Assembly: GCA_016195025.1 (NCBI GenBank)
Contig: JACQAL010000037.1
Location: 1-64,000, forward strand
Length of the DNA: 64,000 nt
Source of the DNA: Bacteroidota bacterium
GTDB taxonomy: Bacteria > Bacteroidota > Bacteroidia > Palsa-948
Direction of reading: 5' to 3'
Each line of letters begins with the position of its first letter. Positions within the stretch are counted from its first letter, which is position 1. The notes below the pieces were generated by a model. That model made no database searches and was not told the origin of the DNA. It worked only from the letters and a program-made list of their open reading frames with translations. Below, one piece after another: positions 29,677 to 46,841 of the stretch. The position numbers were made by a program, and so were the translations under genes.

Positions 29677-30732
29677 CTATTTCTTCTTTTCCAACCTGTC
29701 TAATTGAAAAGCCGCTAAATCATAATCGGGATTAAGGGCAAGGCAGCGTTTGTAATCATTCATGGCTTTTTGAGTTAAACCTTTGGCTTCATAGCACCTG
29801 CCCCTGCCGTAATAGGCGCGGAAAAAATTGGCATCCTTCGCCAGAATGGAATTGAATTTCTGCAATGCTTCATCCGGTTTTTTCTGCTCAAATAAAATGG
29901 CTCCCTGGTTGAAGAGGGCATCGAAGTGCTGTGGCGCAAGGACGAGAAGAGAATCATACACGCTCAGCGCTTTTTCATACGCGCCTGTGTTTTGCAAAAA
30001 ATATCCTTTGTTATAAAACGCTTCCGCGCTTTTAGGTTCAATGCGCAGCGCGCCATCCAGGTATTCAAGTGCGAGCGGATTTTTTTTGCGCGCATACAAA
30101 ACACCCAATTGCATGTAGGCGTTGTAATAATTCTGGTCCGCACGAATGGCATCCTGGAAAGAAGAAATTGCCCGCGCGGTGTCGCCTGTTTCTTTCAGTA
30201 TCATTCCCTTTTGAAAATGAGCCGATGCCCGGGTGCGGTCAAAATGCAAACTGCGGTTGATGTAAAACATTGCCGTATCATATTTGCGCGCAAGAAAAAA
30301 AAGTTCGCTGTACTTGAGCAGCGCTTCGGTGCTGGCGGAATCGCATTTCATCGCCTTGCGCAGCATATTGCGCGTGTCTTTGGTTTTGTTCTGCGTGAGG
30401 TATAAATCGGAAAGGAAAATATAATTCTTCGCGCTGGCGCTGTCGAACTTCAGCACAATCTGCATGTCGGTGATGGCATCGGCATAATTTTTATGTTCGA
30501 AATAATAATGCGCGCGCCTGAAATATAAATCGGGATTGCTGCGGTCTTTTTCAATTGCCGAATTAATGGAGGCAAGGTCAGCAGCAATGGAATCGGTTGA
30601 TGGTGGAGGGTTAATGGTTGATGTTGAATTGCCGCAGGAAGAAAGCGCCAGGATAAAAGCCCATCCCCAACCCTTCCCATTAGGAAGGGAGTTAGCAGGT
30701 AAATTATATTTAGAAAAGATTTTTCTCACCAA
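29677..30732 (-). CDS. TPR lipoprotein
   Basis: 351 residues. The N-terminus is odd: MVRKIFSKYNLPANSLPNGKGWGWAFILALSSCG, where ALSSC is a lipobox and NSLPNGKGWGW is encoded by a palindromic repeat, leaving a short hydrophobic core. The mature chain has about nine TPR units (AYMQLGVLYARKKNPLALEYLDGALRIEP). Likely an outer-membrane or periplasmic scaffold lipoprotein. The stop abuts the 42-bp minisatellite, so changes in the array would alter the sequence next to its 3' end. Neighbour of an R-M pair without clear relation. Confidence 0.75.
   Translation of the reverse strand: MVRKIFSKYNLPANSLPNGKGWGWAFILALSSCGNSTSTINPPPSTDSIAADLASINSAIEKDRSNPDLYFRRAHYYFEHKNYADAITDMQIVLKFDSASAKNYIFLSDLYLTQNKTKDTRNMLRKAMKCDSASTEALLKYSELFFLARKYDTAMFYINRSLHFDRTRASAHFQKGMILKETGDTARAISSFQDAIRADQNYYNAYMQLGVLYARKKNPLALEYLDGALRIEPKSAEAFYNKGYFLQNTGAYEKALSVYDSLLVLAPQHFDALFNQGAILFEQKKPDEALQKFNSILAKDANFFRAYYGRGRCYEAKGLTQKAMNDYKRCLALNPDYDLAAFQLDRLEKKK
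30664..30690. repeat. Palindromic repeat in lipoprotein signal peptide
   Basis: TCCCCAA, then CCCTTCC-CATTA-GGAAGGG (arms 30671-30677 and 30683-30689). Read on the minus strand it encodes part of NSLPNGKGWG of the TPR lipoprotein leader. Same class as 36421-36439, 42804-42823 and the DUF559 flanks. Confidence 0.7.
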
Positions 30733-30741
30733 TTTGAAGTC

Positions 30742-30758
30742 CTCCCCAACGGGGAGGA
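30742..30758. repeat. CCTCCCC-AAC-GGGGAGG palindrome
   Basis: Perfect 7-bp arms in the 29 bp gap between the TPR lipoprotein start and the nuclease stop. Possibly a weak transcription stop for the R-M genes, more likely another scattered palindrome. Confidence 0.6.
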
Positions 30759-30761
30759 GAG

Positions 30762-31427
30762 TTAAAACTCTAACTTATAAATTAATTCATTTTCTATTTT
30801 TTCTAAGTCAAGTAACACTTTTTTTCGTCTTGGCGAACCGTCAGAGTTTCTGAAATTTTCTTGAAACGAACCACATTTAATAAGTGTCTTGTCACTAATT
30901 TCAATAAATGAAATTTGTTGCAAATCAAATTCTACTTTACGTAGGCGCGACCACGCTCCTCTCGAAATTCTTTTTTTTGTATACTCTGATAGTCCGCCTT
31001 TTACTTTTTCATGCCACTTTTGAAAAATTCTTTTTTCGTCATTGTATTCAACTTTTCCGAGAGCGAGTAATAGTCCGACTTTTCCGTATTCTTTTATTGC
31101 ATTTGCAATTGCTTCGCTGTCATTCACGATAATCTGATGACTGCTTGTATTCATTGCATGTGCTTTGAAGTCAAATGGAATTTTGAAAAGTCCGTCAAAC
31201 GAAACATTGTTGTAGCGTGGAGTTTGAAATTCAAAAATATCATTCAAATGTTTTTCGCAGAGATACTGAAAATAAAACCCAATCCATTCCATTTGCTTCC
31301 AATGAGAAAACTCACTGTCTCTCATTTCAATTATCGAATCTTTCCCATTCCAAACCTTTTGAATTTTTCTAAAACGCTTAGCTATTTCCTGATAAATCTT
31401 TTCAGGCATACTGTTCAGAGGGTTCAA
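30762..31427 (-). CDS. Probable type II restriction endonuclease, PD-(D/E)XK fold
   Basis: 221 residues, cytoplasmic. The segment NNVSFDGLFKIPFDFKAHA gives D78, then D86-F-K88, matching the D-Xn-(D/E)-X-K active site of PD-(D/E)XK nucleases. The rest includes a basic DNA-binding-like stretch (EYTKKRISRGAWSRLRKVEF). It follows an adenine methyltransferase gene and overlaps its 3' end by 26 bp, the usual arrangement of a type II restriction-modification pair. No family match is recalled and the recognition site is unknown. Confidence rests mainly on context plus the motif. Confidence 0.65.
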   Translation of the reverse strand: MNPLNSMPEKIYQEIAKRFRKIQKVWNGKDSIIEMRDSEFSHWKQMEWIGFYFQYLCEKHLNDIFEFQTPRYNNVSFDGLFKIPFDFKAHAMNTSSHQIIVNDSEAIANAIKEYGKVGLLLALGKVEYNDEKRIFQKWHEKVKGGLSEYTKKRISRGAWSRLRKVEFDLQQISFIEISDKTLIKCGSFQENFRNSDGSPRRKKVLLDLEKIENELIYKLEF

Positions 31428-36366: not shown

Positions 36367-37503
36367 ATGAATAGTATAATGTTTCCCATCCTGAAAAATG
36401 CCATAAGGTTTTTTTTATTGCTCCCTTTAGGGCTGGGGCAACTTCTTGCCTTCGGCCAGGATTCCATTCTCCCTTCAGGGAAAGGGCAAAAACTTTTTAT
36501 CAACGTAACAGGACATTACGGGTTCATCATCGCGCATAATCCGAACATGGAATATTTGATAAAACAACACATTGCCGCAGGAGAAATGGATTTTATTGTA
36601 CAAACGAACGGAGAAAAAAAATGGGAGCGCACATACAAGAACCCAGAAAAAGGTTTTGGAGTTTTCTTTGCTGATTTCGGAAATCCTGAACAACTCGGGC
36701 AGGGCGTTTCAATTTTTCCTTTCATTAATTTTCCTCTGAATCCGAATAGAAAATTCAAATTATACATCCGCTCGAGCGATGGAATCGGCTACATTACGAA
36801 ACCTTATAACAGAATTGAAAATCACAAGAACAATATTATTGGCTCGCATGTAAATGCGTTTGTTAATCTGCGGTTGAACACGGTTTTTTATCCTGCAAAA
36901 AAAATACGGATGGAAACCGGAATCGGGCTCACGCATTTTTCCAACGGCTCGTATGCAAAACCAAATCTTGGAATCAATCTTGCTACTGTGAGTTTGGGAA
37001 TCAGTTTTCAGAAACAGGAAATCAGTGCCCGGAAAAAATTTTCCGATACTTCCGCTTATAAAAAATATACACTCACGCTCATAGCAGCAGCAGGACCAAA
37101 TGAAACCAGTCCGCCAAACGGAAACAAATATGCGGGCTATATGTTTTCCGCAAGCGGATGGAAACAGAGTTCCGCGAAAAGCAAATTCGGAATCGGGCTT
37201 GAAGCATTTTATGAGTTTTCAAATATTGAAGATGCAAAGCGCGATACTTCTTTCGACACAAGCAAGCCGCTGAATAACCTGCAAGTCGGTTTAAAGTTCG
37301 GCTATGAATTAGTGATTGGAAAAATTTCTCTGCCGCTGGAGCAAGGCGTGTATTTATTTTCAAAGACAACCCTTGACGGACGCATTTATCACAGAATCGG
37401 AATCAGATATCACATAAACAAACATCTCATCATCAACTATACGCTGAAAACTCAATGGGCAACTGCAGAAAATCTAGAGTTCGGAATTGGTTACAGGTTT
37501 TAA
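36367..37503 (+). CDS. PagL-like lipid A deacylase, outer membrane
   Basis: 378 residues. Signal peptide about 1-31 (ending AFGQ), with PLGLGQL encoded by a captured repeat (36421-36439). The segment METGIGLTHFSNGSYAKPNLGIN contains the His-Ser pair of the PagL/acyloxyacyl hydrolase family (HFSN). The chain is strand-rich and ends in an aromatic residue (FGIGYRF), as in barrel proteins. PagL removes the 3-O-acyl chain from lipid A; the family extension beyond the usual about 150 residues is common in Bacteroidota. Convergent with, and overlapping by 30 bp, the next gene's 3' end. Confidence 0.75.
   Translation: MNSIMFPILKNAIRFFLLLPLGLGQLLAFGQDSILPSGKGQKLFINVTGHYGFIIAHNPNMEYLIKQHIAAGEMDFIVQTNGEKKWERTYKNPEKGFGVFFADFGNPEQLGQGVSIFPFINFPLNPNRKFKLYIRSSDGIGYITKPYNRIENHKNNIIGSHVNAFVNLRLNTVFYPAKKIRMETGIGLTHFSNGSYAKPNLGINLATVSLGISFQKQEISARKKFSDTSAYKKYTLTLIAAAGPNETSPPNGNKYAGYMFSASGWKQSSAKSKFGIGLEAFYEFSNIEDAKRDTSFDTSKPLNNLQVGLKFGYELVIGKISLPLEQGVYLFSKTTLDGRIYHRIGIRYHINKHLIINYTLKTQWATAENLEFGIGYRF
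36421..36439. repeat. CTCCCTTTAGGGCTGGGGC element in signal peptide
   Basis: CCCT/AGGG hairpin followed by CTGGGGC. The inverse of 42804-42823 differs in one of the first 19 positions, so these are two copies of one element. Confidence 0.75.
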
Positions 37504-42109: not shown

Positions 42110-42817
42110 ATGCTCAGAAGTTTATTTTTTTTTCTGAAACTCTCGTTCTACTGGTGGCTTTTTTTCGCGCTGTACCGGCTGATTTTTATTTTGGTTTTTC
42201 TTTCACGCATTCCGAAAGGAAAATTTTATGAGGCGCTTATGACATTTTTATATGGACTGCGGCTCGATGCTTCTGCAATTGCGTATCTCATCAGTGTGCC
42301 GCTCATACTCTGGAGCATTCAGCAATTTCTGAAAAATAATTTTCTGAACTTAGTGAATCATTATTATAACTTGCTGCTGATTGCGCTGGTTACCATTGTG
42401 TGCATTTCAAACATTGCCATGTACAGCGAATGGAACGCGCTGATTAATTACAACACGCTGCATTACCTTTTAGCGCCCGCAAAAATGTTTCCTTATTTAA
42501 ACACATGGCAAATGGTTGCCGCCCTCATCGGAGTAGTGATTGTCATTGCTGTTTTTGTTTTGCTCTTCCGCGTAATGATATTGATGGTGCTTCCCTACTC
42601 CACTTCGAAACCATCACGCAAAGTCATTGTTATTTCCATTGCCGCGCCTGTTATTTTTTTGGTAATGCGCGGAGGCACACAGCAAACGCCCATCAACGAA
42701 TCGTTTGCCTGCTATTCTGAAAATTTATTTATTGACCACGTGAGCATTAATCCGGTTTGGCATTTGGGGCGCACGGCATTTTTAGGAGTGGAAGAAGAAA
42801 AAAAGCCCCAACCCTAA
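42110..42817 (+). pseudogene. LTA-synthase-family protein truncated after its membrane domain
   Basis: 235 residues. Five membrane helices (about 5-25, 52-72, 80-100, 125-150, 165-185) followed by RGGTQQTPINESFACYSENL...HLGRTAFLG, the connector that in LTA-synthase-like sulfatases leads to a catalytic domain of 350 or more residues with a nucleophilic Thr and Mn site. Here the frame stops after GVEEEKKPQP, encoded by a palindromic repeat (42804-42823), and the next gene starts 10 bp later. The catalytic domain is absent, so the protein should be inactive unless it acts only as a membrane anchor. Confidence 0.75.
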
Positions 42818-42823
42818 AGGGAG
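42804..42823. repeat. AGCCCCAACCCTAAAGGGAG element at gene truncation
   Basis: Inverse of the element at 36421-36439 (one difference in 19). It forms the last codons of the truncated LTA-synthase-like gene, so it marks the deletion join. Confidence 0.75.
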
Positions 42824-42827
42824 AATT

Positions 42828-44168: not shown

Positions 44169-45047
44169 TTAATATATTTCCTTCCTGCTTGCCTTCAGCG
44201 TATTCATCAGAAGAGAAGCAATCGTCATTGGCCCCACTCCGCCAGGCACAGGAGTGATGAAAGAACATTTCGGAGCCACTTCATCAAACTTCACATCGCC
44301 TAAAAGTTTCCAGCCGGATTTTGTTTGGTCAGATTTCACTCGTGTAATTCCCACATCAATCACCACCGCGCCTTCTTTCACATAATCTGCTGTGAGAAAT
44401 TCTGCCTTGCCGAGAGCGGCAATAATAATATCTGCACTTTGACAAATTTCTTTCAGGTTTTTTGTTTTGCTGTGTGTGAGTGTAACCGTACAATTTCCGG
44501 GATAAGAATTTCTCGCAAGAAGAATGCTCATAGGAGAACCAACGATGTGGCTTCTTCCAATCACTACGCAGTTTTTTCCTTCGGTAGGAATTTTATATCG
44601 TTCGATGAGTTGCAAAATCCCAAAAGGAGTTGCGGGAAGATAAGTTGGAAGATTCAAAGCCATTCGTCCCACGTTTGCAGGATGAAATCCATCCACATCT
44701 TTTTCGGGAGCGATGGCTTCAATAACTTTTCGTTCAGAAATAGTTGAGGGAAGAGGAAGCTGAACAATAAATCCGTCAATGTCTTTGTCATTATTTAATT
44801 CGGAAATCTTTTTCAGCAAATCATTTTCAGAAGTTGTATCGGGCAATCTTACGAGCGTTGATTTGAATCCAACACGCTCGCACGCTTTCACTTTTCCGCC
44901 AACATACGTTTCGCTCGCGCCATCATTGCCGACAAGTATTGCTGCGAGGTGGGGAATTTTTTCTCCGGAAGATTTTATCTTCTTTACTTCCTCAGCAATT
45001 TCGCTTTGGATTTGTTCTGATATTTTTTTACCGTCAATTATATGCAT
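44169..45047 (-). CDS. folD: Bifunctional methylenetetrahydrofolate dehydrogenase/cyclohydrolase
   Basis: 292 residues, family length. [14 protein letters not shown] contains the catalytic Lys, [10 protein letters not shown] is the folate site signature, [11 protein letters not shown] is the NADP loop and [16 protein letters not shown] the C-terminal signature. It interconverts 5,10-methylene- and 10-formyl-THF. Minus strand; the DUF559 unit lies 7 bp before its start. Confidence 0.96.
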
Positions 45048-45053
45048 TTGATT

Positions 45054-45084
45054 TCCCCCTTAATAAAGGGGGTTAGGGGGTTGT
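45054..45084. repeat. Left inverted copy flanking the DUF559 gene
   Basis: TCCCCCTTA, then ATAAAGGGGG, TTA, GGGGGTTGT. CCCCCTT/AAGGGGG forms a hairpin. It matches the inverse of 45470-45502 apart from two loop bases and a 2-bp difference. The stop codon of the DUF559 frame (TAA) lies inside it. Confidence 0.9.
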
Positions 45085-45456
45085 CTGCAATTTATTTTTG
45101 ATTTCCAATTCTTCAATAAAATCTTCGACTACTCTTATAATATGATGAATCTGGATTTTAATTGATTTATCATCCAATCTTAAAAAAGTAATTCCTAATT
45201 TCTCAAGTTCATTCTGTCTTTTCAAATCCTCTTCAGCTTTTTCATTATGGCTACTTCCATCTACTTCGATTGCAAGTTTTAATTTGCTGCAATAAAAATC
45301 AACAATATATTTTTTAATCGGCTTCTGACGCATAAATTGATATCCTTTGATTTTTCTTCCTTTCAATTGTTTCCATAATAAAACTTCTGAAAGCGTGCTG
45401 TTGTTTCGTAAATCACGAGAGAGTTGCTTTAGATTTGAATTGTAATAGATTTTCAT
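45073..45456 (-). CDS. DUF559 endonuclease-domain protein between inverted repeats
   Basis: 127 residues from the ATG at 45456 (MKIYYNSNLKQLSRDLRNNS). A longer frame from 45513 only translates the repeat. EVLLWKQLKGRKIKGYQFMRQKPIKKYIVDFYC and KLAIEVDGSSHN hold the Vsr-like active site: Asp in VDFYC, then EVDGSSH. DUF559 is related to very-short-patch repair nucleases. The C-terminus QTTP and stop come from the left repeat. The gene and both repeats fill the whole gap between folD and ffh, so this looks like an inserted unit rather than a resident gene. Target unknown. Confidence 0.88.
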   Translation of the reverse strand: MKIYYNSNLKQLSRDLRNNSTLSEVLLWKQLKGRKIKGYQFMRQKPIKKYIVDFYCSKLKLAIEVDGSSHNEKAEEDLKRQNELEKLGITFLRLDDKSIKIQIHHIIRVVEDFIEELEIKNKLQTTP

Positions 45457-45469
45457 TTTATATTTTCCC

Positions 45470-45502
45470 ACAACCCCCTTTATCCCCCTTTGGTAAGGGG
45501 GA
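45470..45502. repeat. Right inverted copy flanking the DUF559 gene
   Basis: ACAACCCCC, TTTAT, CCCCCTTTGG, TAAGGGGGA. Its inverse is almost the sequence of 45054-45084, and together they bracket the gene as inverted repeats with TCCCCCTTA at both outer ends. Confidence 0.9.
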
Positions 45503-45509
45503 TAATACA

Positions 45510-46841
45510 TCATCTTGGTTTCGGCATATTTTGCATCATCTTTCTCATCTGGTCTTTGTTGCCCATCATCCGCATCATCTTGCGCATGTCTTCAAATTGT
45601 TTCATCAGCCGGTTCACATCTTGAATGGGTCGCCCGCTGCCTTTTGAAATTCTTTGCCTGCGGCTTCCGTTGATTATGTCGGGATTGTTTCTTTCTTTCG
45701 GAGTCATTGATTGAATGATGGCTTCAATTCCTTTGAACGCGTCATCGTTGATATCAATATCTTTCATCGCTTTTCCAACTCCGGGAATCATTCCGATTAA
45801 ATCTTTCATATTGCCCATCTTTTTTATTTGCTGAAGCTGCCCGAGAAAATCATCGAAGTCAAATTTATTCTGCGCGAGTTTCTTCTGAAGTTTTTTTGCT
45901 TCTTCTACATTGAACTGCTCCTGCGCTTTTTCAACGAGCGTAACAATATCTCCCATTCCCAAAATTCTATCCGCCATTCTATCCGGATGAAAAACATCAA
46001 TCGCATCCATCTTTTCGCCCGTTCCAACAAACTTGATTGGCTTGTTCACGACAGATTTTATCGAAAGCGCAGCACCACCACGCGTATCGCCATCTAATTT
46101 TGTAAGCACCACTCCATCGAAATTTAATTTATCATTGAAAGCTTTTGCAGTATTCACTGCATCCTGTCCCGTCATTGCATCCACCACAAATAAAATTTCC
46201 TGCGGGTCAACGGCTTTTTTCACTGCGGAAATTTCATTCATCATCTGTTCGTCAATCGCAAGGCGGCCGGCAGTGTCAATGATTACAACCGTGTGGTTAT
46301 TATTTTTTGCAAACTGAATTGCTTTCTTCGCAATGTCAACTGCATTTTTATTTTCCGGTTCGGCAAAAACAGAAACTCCAATCTGCTCTCCTAAAATTTT
46401 CAACTGGTCAATCGCAGCAGGGCGGTAAATATCGCAGGCAACAAGCAATGGATTTTTTCCGCGCTTGTTCTTTAAATAGTTTGCAAGTTTTCCGGAGAAA
46501 GTTGTTTTGCCCGAACCTTGAAGTCCGCTCATTAAAATCACAGTAGGATTTCCCGTGAGTTTGATTTCTTCGTTCTTCCCGCCCATCAGTTCCGCTAACT
46601 CATCGCGGGTGATTTTCGTCATCAATTGTCCGGGAGAAATTGAAGTGAGAACATTTTGACCGAGCGCTTTCTCCCTTACGTTATCGGTAAAAGTTTTTGC
46701 TACTTTATAATTCACATCCGCATCGAGCAGCGCTTTACGGATTTCTTTGAGCGTTTCGCTCACGTTTACTTCCGTAATCTTTCCCTGCCCTTTCAGAATT
46801 TTAAAGGCGCGTTCTATTTTGTCGGATAAATTTTCAAACAT
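45510..46841 (-). CDS. ffh: Signal recognition particle protein Ffh
   Basis: 443 residues, family length. NG domain with GLQGSGKTTFSGKL (G1), DTAGRLAIDEQMM (G3) and LTKLDGDTRGGAALS (G4/G5), then the methionine-rich M domain with GSRRQRISKGSGRPIQDVNRL, which binds 4.5S RNA, ending in Met-rich RKMMRMMGNKDQMRKMMQNM. GTPase that targets signal-sequence proteins to the membrane. I did not recognise the 4.5S RNA gene here. Confidence 0.97.
   Translation of the reverse strand: MFENLSDKIERAFKILKGQGKITEVNVSETLKEIRKALLDADVNYKVAKTFTDNVREKALGQNVLTSISPGQLMTKITRDELAELMGGKNEEIKLTGNPTVILMSGLQGSGKTTFSGKLANYLKNKRGKNPLLVACDIYRPAAIDQLKILGEQIGVSVFAEPENKNAVDIAKKAIQFAKNNNHTVVIIDTAGRLAIDEQMMNEISAVKKAVDPQEILFVVDAMTGQDAVNTAKAFNDKLNFDGVVLTKLDGDTRGGAALSIKSVVNKPIKFVGTGEKMDAIDVFHPDRMADRILGMGDIVTLVEKAQEQFNVEEAKKLQKKLAQNKFDFDDFLGQLQQIKKMGNMKDLIGMIPGVGKAMKDIDINDDAFKGIEAIIQSMTPKERNNPDIINGSRRQRISKGSGRPIQDVNRLMKQFEDMRKMMRMMGNKDQMRKMMQNMPKPR

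Follow-up and report, generated by a model that had tools for sequence, protein, structure and literature searches.

A DUF559 nuclease gene enclosed by two inverted copies of a palindromic repeat fills the space between folD and ffh in the window (the whole 64,000-nucleotide stretch of Bacteroidota DNA that was analyzed), and comparison with related genomes makes it very probable that the gene and its repeats are mobile as a whole. DUF559 is a widespread domain of unknown function. We consider it likely that the unit is a minimal autonomous mobile element, made up of a homing-type nuclease gene and two inverted cognate palindromic repeats, and equally likely that the nuclease acts on these repeats and drives their movement.

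How REP-like or protein-coding palindromes spread without a matching RAYT transposase is an open question in the field. One whole superfamily of palindromic repeats was apparently without a dedicated transposase in a 2013 survey (PMC3733652). In about ten phyla, the repeats described here, which form another superfamily, are accompanied by an enzyme with kinship to a proven homing endonuclease. A causal link would assign a function to DUF559 and a mover to the repeats, in a two-part mobile unit of less than 500 bp, and it would also provide natural cases in which a whole nuclease domain (~105 aa plus the translated repeats) is tolerated inside LeuRS, MutS, RecJ and TsaD. Units of this type may also explain the dispersal of such short repeats. 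We are somewhat inclined to regard DUF559 as an enzyme dedicated to moving a large superfamily of palindromic repeats that spans phyla, and hence the units as a new class of mobile element, which would combine homing-type cutting with host repair, land in frame in essential genes and account for many of the repeats found within proteins. In the literature outside subscription journals, no description of an association between DUF559 (PF04480) and repeats was found; an earlier report is possible.

The unit between folD and ffh

The features of the unit are presented in Table 1, together with a gene-less repeat pair from elsewhere in the window. The initial annotation, made from the letters alone, had described inverted repeat copies with a DUF559 reading frame between them, and both sequence and Pfam bear this out, including the stop codon that the frame takes from one repeat (TTA/TAA at 45073-45075, inside the folD-side copy) and the ATG located 14 nt from the ffh-side copy. 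The distances of 7 bp to folD and 8 bp to ffh given there were each one too many: the free gaps are 6 nt (folD ends at 45047) and 7 nt (ffh starts at 45510). The start at 45456 is preferred over the one at 45513 because the longer frame merely adds translated repeat, and because the 45456 start is kept in G005, a genome of the same genus (G000 denotes the window's own genome). The two repeats follow the consensus TCCCCCTT-N4-AAGGGGG plus a tail ending in GGGGGTTGT, with the palindromes outside and the tails toward the gene. No Rfam match was found at 44900-45700.

Table 1. Coordinates of the nuclease unit and of a gene-less repeat pair in the window.
Feature	Positions	Strand	Sequence or evidence
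folD-side repeat	45054-45084	+	TCCCCCTTAATAAAGGGGGTTAGGGGGTTGT; palindrome TCCCCCTT-AATA-AAGGGGG, then inward tail TTA-GGGGGTTGT
ffh-side repeat, inverted	45470-45502	-	TCCCCCTTACCAAAGGGGGATAAAGGGGGTTGT (reverse strand); palindrome TCCCCCTT-ACCA-AAGGGGGA, then inward tail TAAA-GGGGGTTGT
DUF559 (PF04480) nuclease, 127 aa, Vsr/I-Bth0305I-like PD-(D/E)XK fold	45073-45456	-	Pfam E = 8.5e-30
Whole inserted unit, repeat-nuclease-repeat, 449 bp	45054-45502	-	Present/absent comparison of congeners
Solo repeat pair of another family, without nuclease	30660-30765		CCCATCCCCAACCCTTCCCATTAGGAAGGGAG, TCCTCCCCAACGGGGAGGA

Palindromes of the form CCCCT-N(2-8)-AGGGG occur in the window only as the two repeats of the unit (0.2 expected). 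The related elements that had been described as scattered through the window do exist, although most of them belong to other repeat families (30660-30691, 30739-30765, 36419-36488 and 42805-42824).

Separately, the gene-less pair in Table 1 is REPIN-like in form and stands at the start of a gene: its first repeat is translated in frame, close to the beginning of the ORF at 29677-30732. The kinship of the pair to the window's unit is one of design (tail plus palindrome) rather than of sequence.

Flanking inverted repeats across DUF559 genes

All seven full-length DUF559 genes of G000 lie, by eye, between inverted palindromic repeats, which are of several different sequences. For larger sets, drawn mostly from draft or MAG assemblies, the flank score was defined as the best inverted alignment between the 350-bp flanks of a gene, with a threshold of at least 16. 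Among 87 Bacteroidota loci from G000 and its relatives (40 genomes searched), 64% reach this threshold, versus 0.3% of 728 random 320-bp control spans from the same loci and 2.8% of flanks paired from different loci. A cross-phylum set of 79 loci, picked by similarity to the window's clade, yielded 68%, versus 0.5% of 632 controls. This set covers about ten phyla: Bacteroidota, Neomarinimicrobiota, Ignavibacteria, Planctomycetes, Nitrospirae, Firmicutes, cyanobacteria, spirochaetes (Brevinematales), Verrucomicrobia and others. These values place most DUF559 genes, both within the class and over the phyla, inside inverted repeats, at roughly 150-200 times the control rate.

Nearly the same motif, TCCCCTC..GAGGGG-TTA-GGGGTG(T/G)GT, is found in different phyla, and the same unit design is present on rhizobial, sphingomonad, Azospirillum, cyanobacterial and Deinococcus replicons, with some loci lacking it. 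Culturable hosts of DUF559 genes include Pelosinus fermentans JBW45 (L172), Pontibacter (L164) and Algibacter. About one-third of the DUF559 genes fall below the threshold, including E. coli ycjD, and some of these have visible, diverged repeats. As a within-species test, ycjD was tried and set aside, since it has no clean inverted repeats and the alternative alleles that were read hold other genes. Most of the ycjD region (sapF-fabI) is present in 3363 of 5426 complete E. coli genomes, and the genomes without it that were read have different genes after sapF; ycjD may be a relic.

Empty and occupied sites

The ffh-folD region was compared in seven genomes of the genus, leaving out the gap of G002. 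The ffh-folD gap of G000 and G005 contains the DUF559 gene and both repeats; in G003, the gene and both repeats follow ffh on its downstream side. Without the unit, the gap measures 6 nt in G001, 24 nt in G006 and ~125 nt in G004. Wherever a relative has the gene at this locus, the repeats are there as well, and the empty sites of close relatives, the longer gap of G004 among them, lack this repeat. The outer edge of the folD-side repeat coincides with the insertion edge relative to the empty sites of G001 and G006. Since some of these congeners have empty sites (6 and 24 nt) and others occupied ones, gene and both repeats arrived together.

Two further loci were compared in the same way. Another DUF559 unit of G000 stands between nuoD and nuoH, where the gap in G001 is 3 nt. 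The recJ gene contains repeat, DUF559 and repeat in frame in G001, G003 and G006; in G004 and G005 it has an uninterrupted loop without any repeat.

Three minor observations concern insertion sites. The nuoD-nuoH gaps of G004 and G005 contain gene-less repeat pairs of other families (L308, L309), REPIN-like in form, where a sister genome has a DUF559 unit. The folD gene of G004 (L055) has an in-frame extra SKVLPNGEDLGGAA, a translated palindromic repeat that is missing in sister genomes. Tightly packed operons of Sphingomonas parapaucimobilis (L271, L279) are interrupted by DUF559 units: one unit follows the NAD(P) transhydrogenase alpha gene and precedes the gene of the next subunit, and another separates sufB from sufC.

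Association between the nuclease and the repeats

Palindrome excess was measured as the count of CCCCT-N(2-8)-AGGGG-type sequences versus that of a reversed control pattern. In G000, where genome-wide counts rest on such pattern searches, 47 palindromes were found, versus 2 for the control. An excess is present in 26 of 28 genomes with DUF559 versus 1 of 12 without it (Fisher 4e-7) or, with one genome per genus, in 20 of 22 versus 1 of 12, and the correlation persists with two palindromes per unit subtracted. Solo repeats do occur beside and within unrelated genes of G000; paired repeats, by comparison, are not equally frequent there, as a DUF559 gene lies within five of the six palindrome pairs with a spacing below 600 bp. 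The remaining pair comprises two unlike repeats, separate insertions in one gene.

Although repeat sequences differ between units, their orientation follows the nuclease phylogeny. On a tree of 69 DUF559 domains, with the repeat tail pointing toward or away from the gene as the character, orientation requires 7 changes, whereas shuffled data require 19 and none of 500 shuffles gave a number as low. All 20 scored members of one clade are tail-in, and the clade of gene-embedded units is tail-out in 16 of 17. Within single genomes, nuclease similarity rises modestly with repeat similarity (rho 0.31, permutation p = 0.009). Such matching between clades and repeats could result from co-inheritance alone.

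These results bear on the explanation that competes best with a nuclease-driven unit, namely that a RAYT/HUH transposase or another recombinase moves the palindromes in trans, DUF559 being surviving cargo. A REPtron is a RAYT (TnpA-REP, an HUH Y1 transposase) with flanking REPs, and REPINs are non-autonomous. RAYTs, also movers of palindromes, are present in six of the seven genus genomes, and their loci, which served as a positive control and yardstick for the flank score, resemble DUF559 loci in that 57% score at least 16. A RAYT was nevertheless rejected as the mover because the repeats of RAYT loci and of DUF559 units do not match: DUF559-type palindromes were found at 0 of 24 RAYT loci of the genus. 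Moreover, G001 has no Y1 transposase, yet it contains two DUF559 units and a palindrome excess (9 versus 1). Also against cargo status, no other gene bracketed by DUF559-type repeats was found in G000, the palindrome excess tracks DUF559 across families, and the orientation of the repeats goes with the nuclease. We therefore regard this explanation as unlikely.

As a side observation, the RAYT (Y1_Tnp) genes of the genus (L128-L157) are flanked by REPs of their own, of the GTCCCGTAGGGAC..CTGT and GGCTTTAGCC types; hence, these genomes harbor two palindrome systems that are independent of each other.

Insertions in genes and target duplications

About one-third of the DUF559 units are inside long open frames. 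According to Pfam, DUF559 lies within MutS, RecJ, RecG, leucyl-tRNA synthetase and TsaD, as well as within a SpoIIE-type phosphatase and a TsaD-family protein interpreted as TsaB. The repeats of such units are translated (e.g., as SPNPSPKERG and VLPFGEDLGGA), and 14 of 26 sampled palindromes, mostly solo copies, are well inside ORFs of at least 200 aa. Inteins were considered and discarded: the junctions are translated repeats without intein signatures (an N-junction Cys/Ser, a C-junction His-Asn, splicing blocks), and Pfam reports no intein domain.

Units of G000, G004, G013 and G029 share one SpoIIE loop, and a single LeuRS position holds the units of G011, G019 and G029. This recurrence in different families fits either true homing or insertion-tolerant loops. 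Sites shared by several species, including recJ in G001, G003 and G006, would be expected of a classical homing gene, which would spread by allelic gene conversion only, between strains and into the same allele, its repeats acting as terminators or coding-neutral ends and not as substrates; homology and fold match to I-Bth0305I point the same way. This reading is improbable, given the many different, unrelated sites per genome (8 DUF559 matches in G000, 11 in G003), a flanking-repeat design that is conserved over phyla, and solo repeats that track the nuclease. Purely allelic homing explains neither the solo repeats nor the paired ends.

Direct duplications (score of at least 30) flank 38 of 141 units, versus 4 of 847 control spans. 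Many of these fall in repeat-dense regions, and two clean ones are found in G000. One is a 33 bp duplication (97%) outside both repeats that copies the start of the next gene (L003), and the other, of 63 bp (98%), takes in the host gene's 3' end and has its own end within the palindrome loop (L007). No target duplication was found at the window's own unit. Duplications thus concern a minority of units, with lengths that vary between these 33 and 63 bp and longer ones elsewhere. Such variation would argue against a classical transposase and would fit nicks or breaks followed by host repair.

The enzyme

Pfam assigns the window's protein only to DUF559 and related REase models, and PF01797 is absent. 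Its AlphaFold model has a pLDDT of 90.6 and a pTM of 0.83. Searched with Foldseek, this predicted model retrieves the Neisseria protein 3hrl first, followed by the catalytic domain of I-Bth0305I (3r3p, 1.8e-4, TM 0.7), by PvuRts1I and, weakly, by Vsr (1vsr, E = 0.07). A profile of 11 family members matches I-Bth0305I at 3.7e-6 (hmmsearch), and residues E24, D53, E64, D66 and H70 are invariant in 29 sequences from many phyla. I-Bth0305I is a proven homing endonuclease. It is described as forming a dimer on its target, which is almost 60 bp long (PMC3943268).

A role in hygiene, defense or addiction, in which a Vsr-like or PvuRts1I-like enzyme would serve restriction or repair and the repeats would be regulatory or protective sites, is very improbable: the fold kinship to Vsr and PvuRts1I, a weak match to methyl-directed restriction enzymes in PADLOC (1e-8) and the proposed role in mismatch repair of Caulobacter VsrA, a DUF559 protein (PMC12907096), speak in its favor, but no methyltransferase or defense partner was found at the window locus, where the neighbors are folD and ffh, the presence of DUF559 is patchy and multi-copy, and many copies are in frame in housekeeping genes.

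Proposed mechanism

Returning to a nuclease that drives the movement of its own unit, we propose that the enzyme would recognize the repeat, as a duplex or an extruded hairpin, and would nick or cut at or near it, after which host repair would copy the unit, or a single repeat, to other locations. The cut would be expected within or beside the palindrome loop, where the 63 bp duplication at L007 ends. In this scheme, non-autonomous offspring would comprise the solo repeats and the gene-less inverted pairs, and the surviving insertions would be those that keep the frame in protein loops or that fall between genes. We infer the nuclease as mover, as well as the cut site and the repair route. To our knowledge, no strand-transfer chemistry has been described for DUF559, so that spread to new sites would have to use host repair. 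The initial annotation had suggested a homing-type or repeat-dispersing system; both descriptions fit, and the data do not separate the two.

Comparison with known systems

The unit had also been likened in logic to REPtrons, with a Vsr-like nuclease in place of the transposase, a view that the flank, insertion and fold comparisons support. As in REPtrons, one small enzyme gene lies between inverted palindromic repeats that are also dispersed as solo copies, gene-less inverted pairs exist, enzyme and repeat appear to be co-inherited, and flank scores within the genus are similar. Unlike REPtrons, the DUF559 unit has a PD-(D/E)XK nuclease and no Y1/HUH domain, its tails are GGGGG(A/T)TGT or GGGGTG(T/G)GT without a GTAG tag, its repeats are not shared with local RAYTs, and it is often in frame within coding genes. 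It is not a REPtron, given that its enzyme is a homing-type nuclease and its repeats belong to a different superfamily.

With the EDxHD/I-Bth0305I group the unit shares the profile and fold match, the conserved acidic residues and His, and recurring insertion sites. However, it has no intron, intein or known DNA-binding module, and it differs in its own inverted repeat ends and many unrelated sites per genome, on account of which it is not a classical homing gene. Terminal inverted repeats are likewise found in insertion sequences and MITEs, but no known transposase domain is present in the unit. Membership in the Vsr fold superfamily is common to the DUF559 nuclease and Vsr, although DUF559 is multi-copy, repeat-flanked and not linked to a cytosine methyltransferase.

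Rickettsia palindromic elements (RPE) resemble DUF559-type repeats in being short palindromes in frame in protein genes. For CGTC REPs, the absence of a dedicated transposase has been reported (PMC3733652, PMC10969869). DUF559-type repeats differ in sequence and in having an associated enzyme gene, and no CGTC tag was seen in those flanking repeats that were read. A link to CGTC REPs (dRS3, RPE-4/6) was pursued at loci of Neisseria, rhizobia, sphingomonads, Azospirillum, cyanobacteria and Deinococcus, and was rejected, as the DUF559 loci of the plasmid collection carry CCCTC..GAGGG-type repeats and not CGTC/dRS3. The single Neisseria DUF559 locus examined has a CCCTCTCCC-type repeat on one side, which is not dRS3.

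Repeat structure and arrays

The repeat consists of three arms: a C-arm, a loop and a complementary G-arm are followed by a tail, which looks like a second G-arm and terminates in TGT, TGTGT or TGGGT. Judging from this layout, the three-arm repeat could form two alternative hairpins. The length of the C-run in the arm co-varies with that of the G-run in the tail (rho 0.63 over 230 repeats, the commonest combinations being 4-4 and 5-5), which is a description and not a test, because related families make the points non-independent. In solo repeats at three loci (L009, L017, L021), an extra small hairpin of variable sequence is located between the palindrome and the G-run tail.

Some DUF559 genes are associated with longer repeat tracts. 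At L110 (G025:C11), an array of near-identical repeats lies beside and in frame with the DUF559 ORF and is translated as repeated IPLTPFFKGEEQEVTL peptides. At four other loci (L182, L203, L205, L047), the units sit within large tandem arrays built from a repeat and a unique spacer (150-350 bp), a pattern suggesting repeated local duplication.
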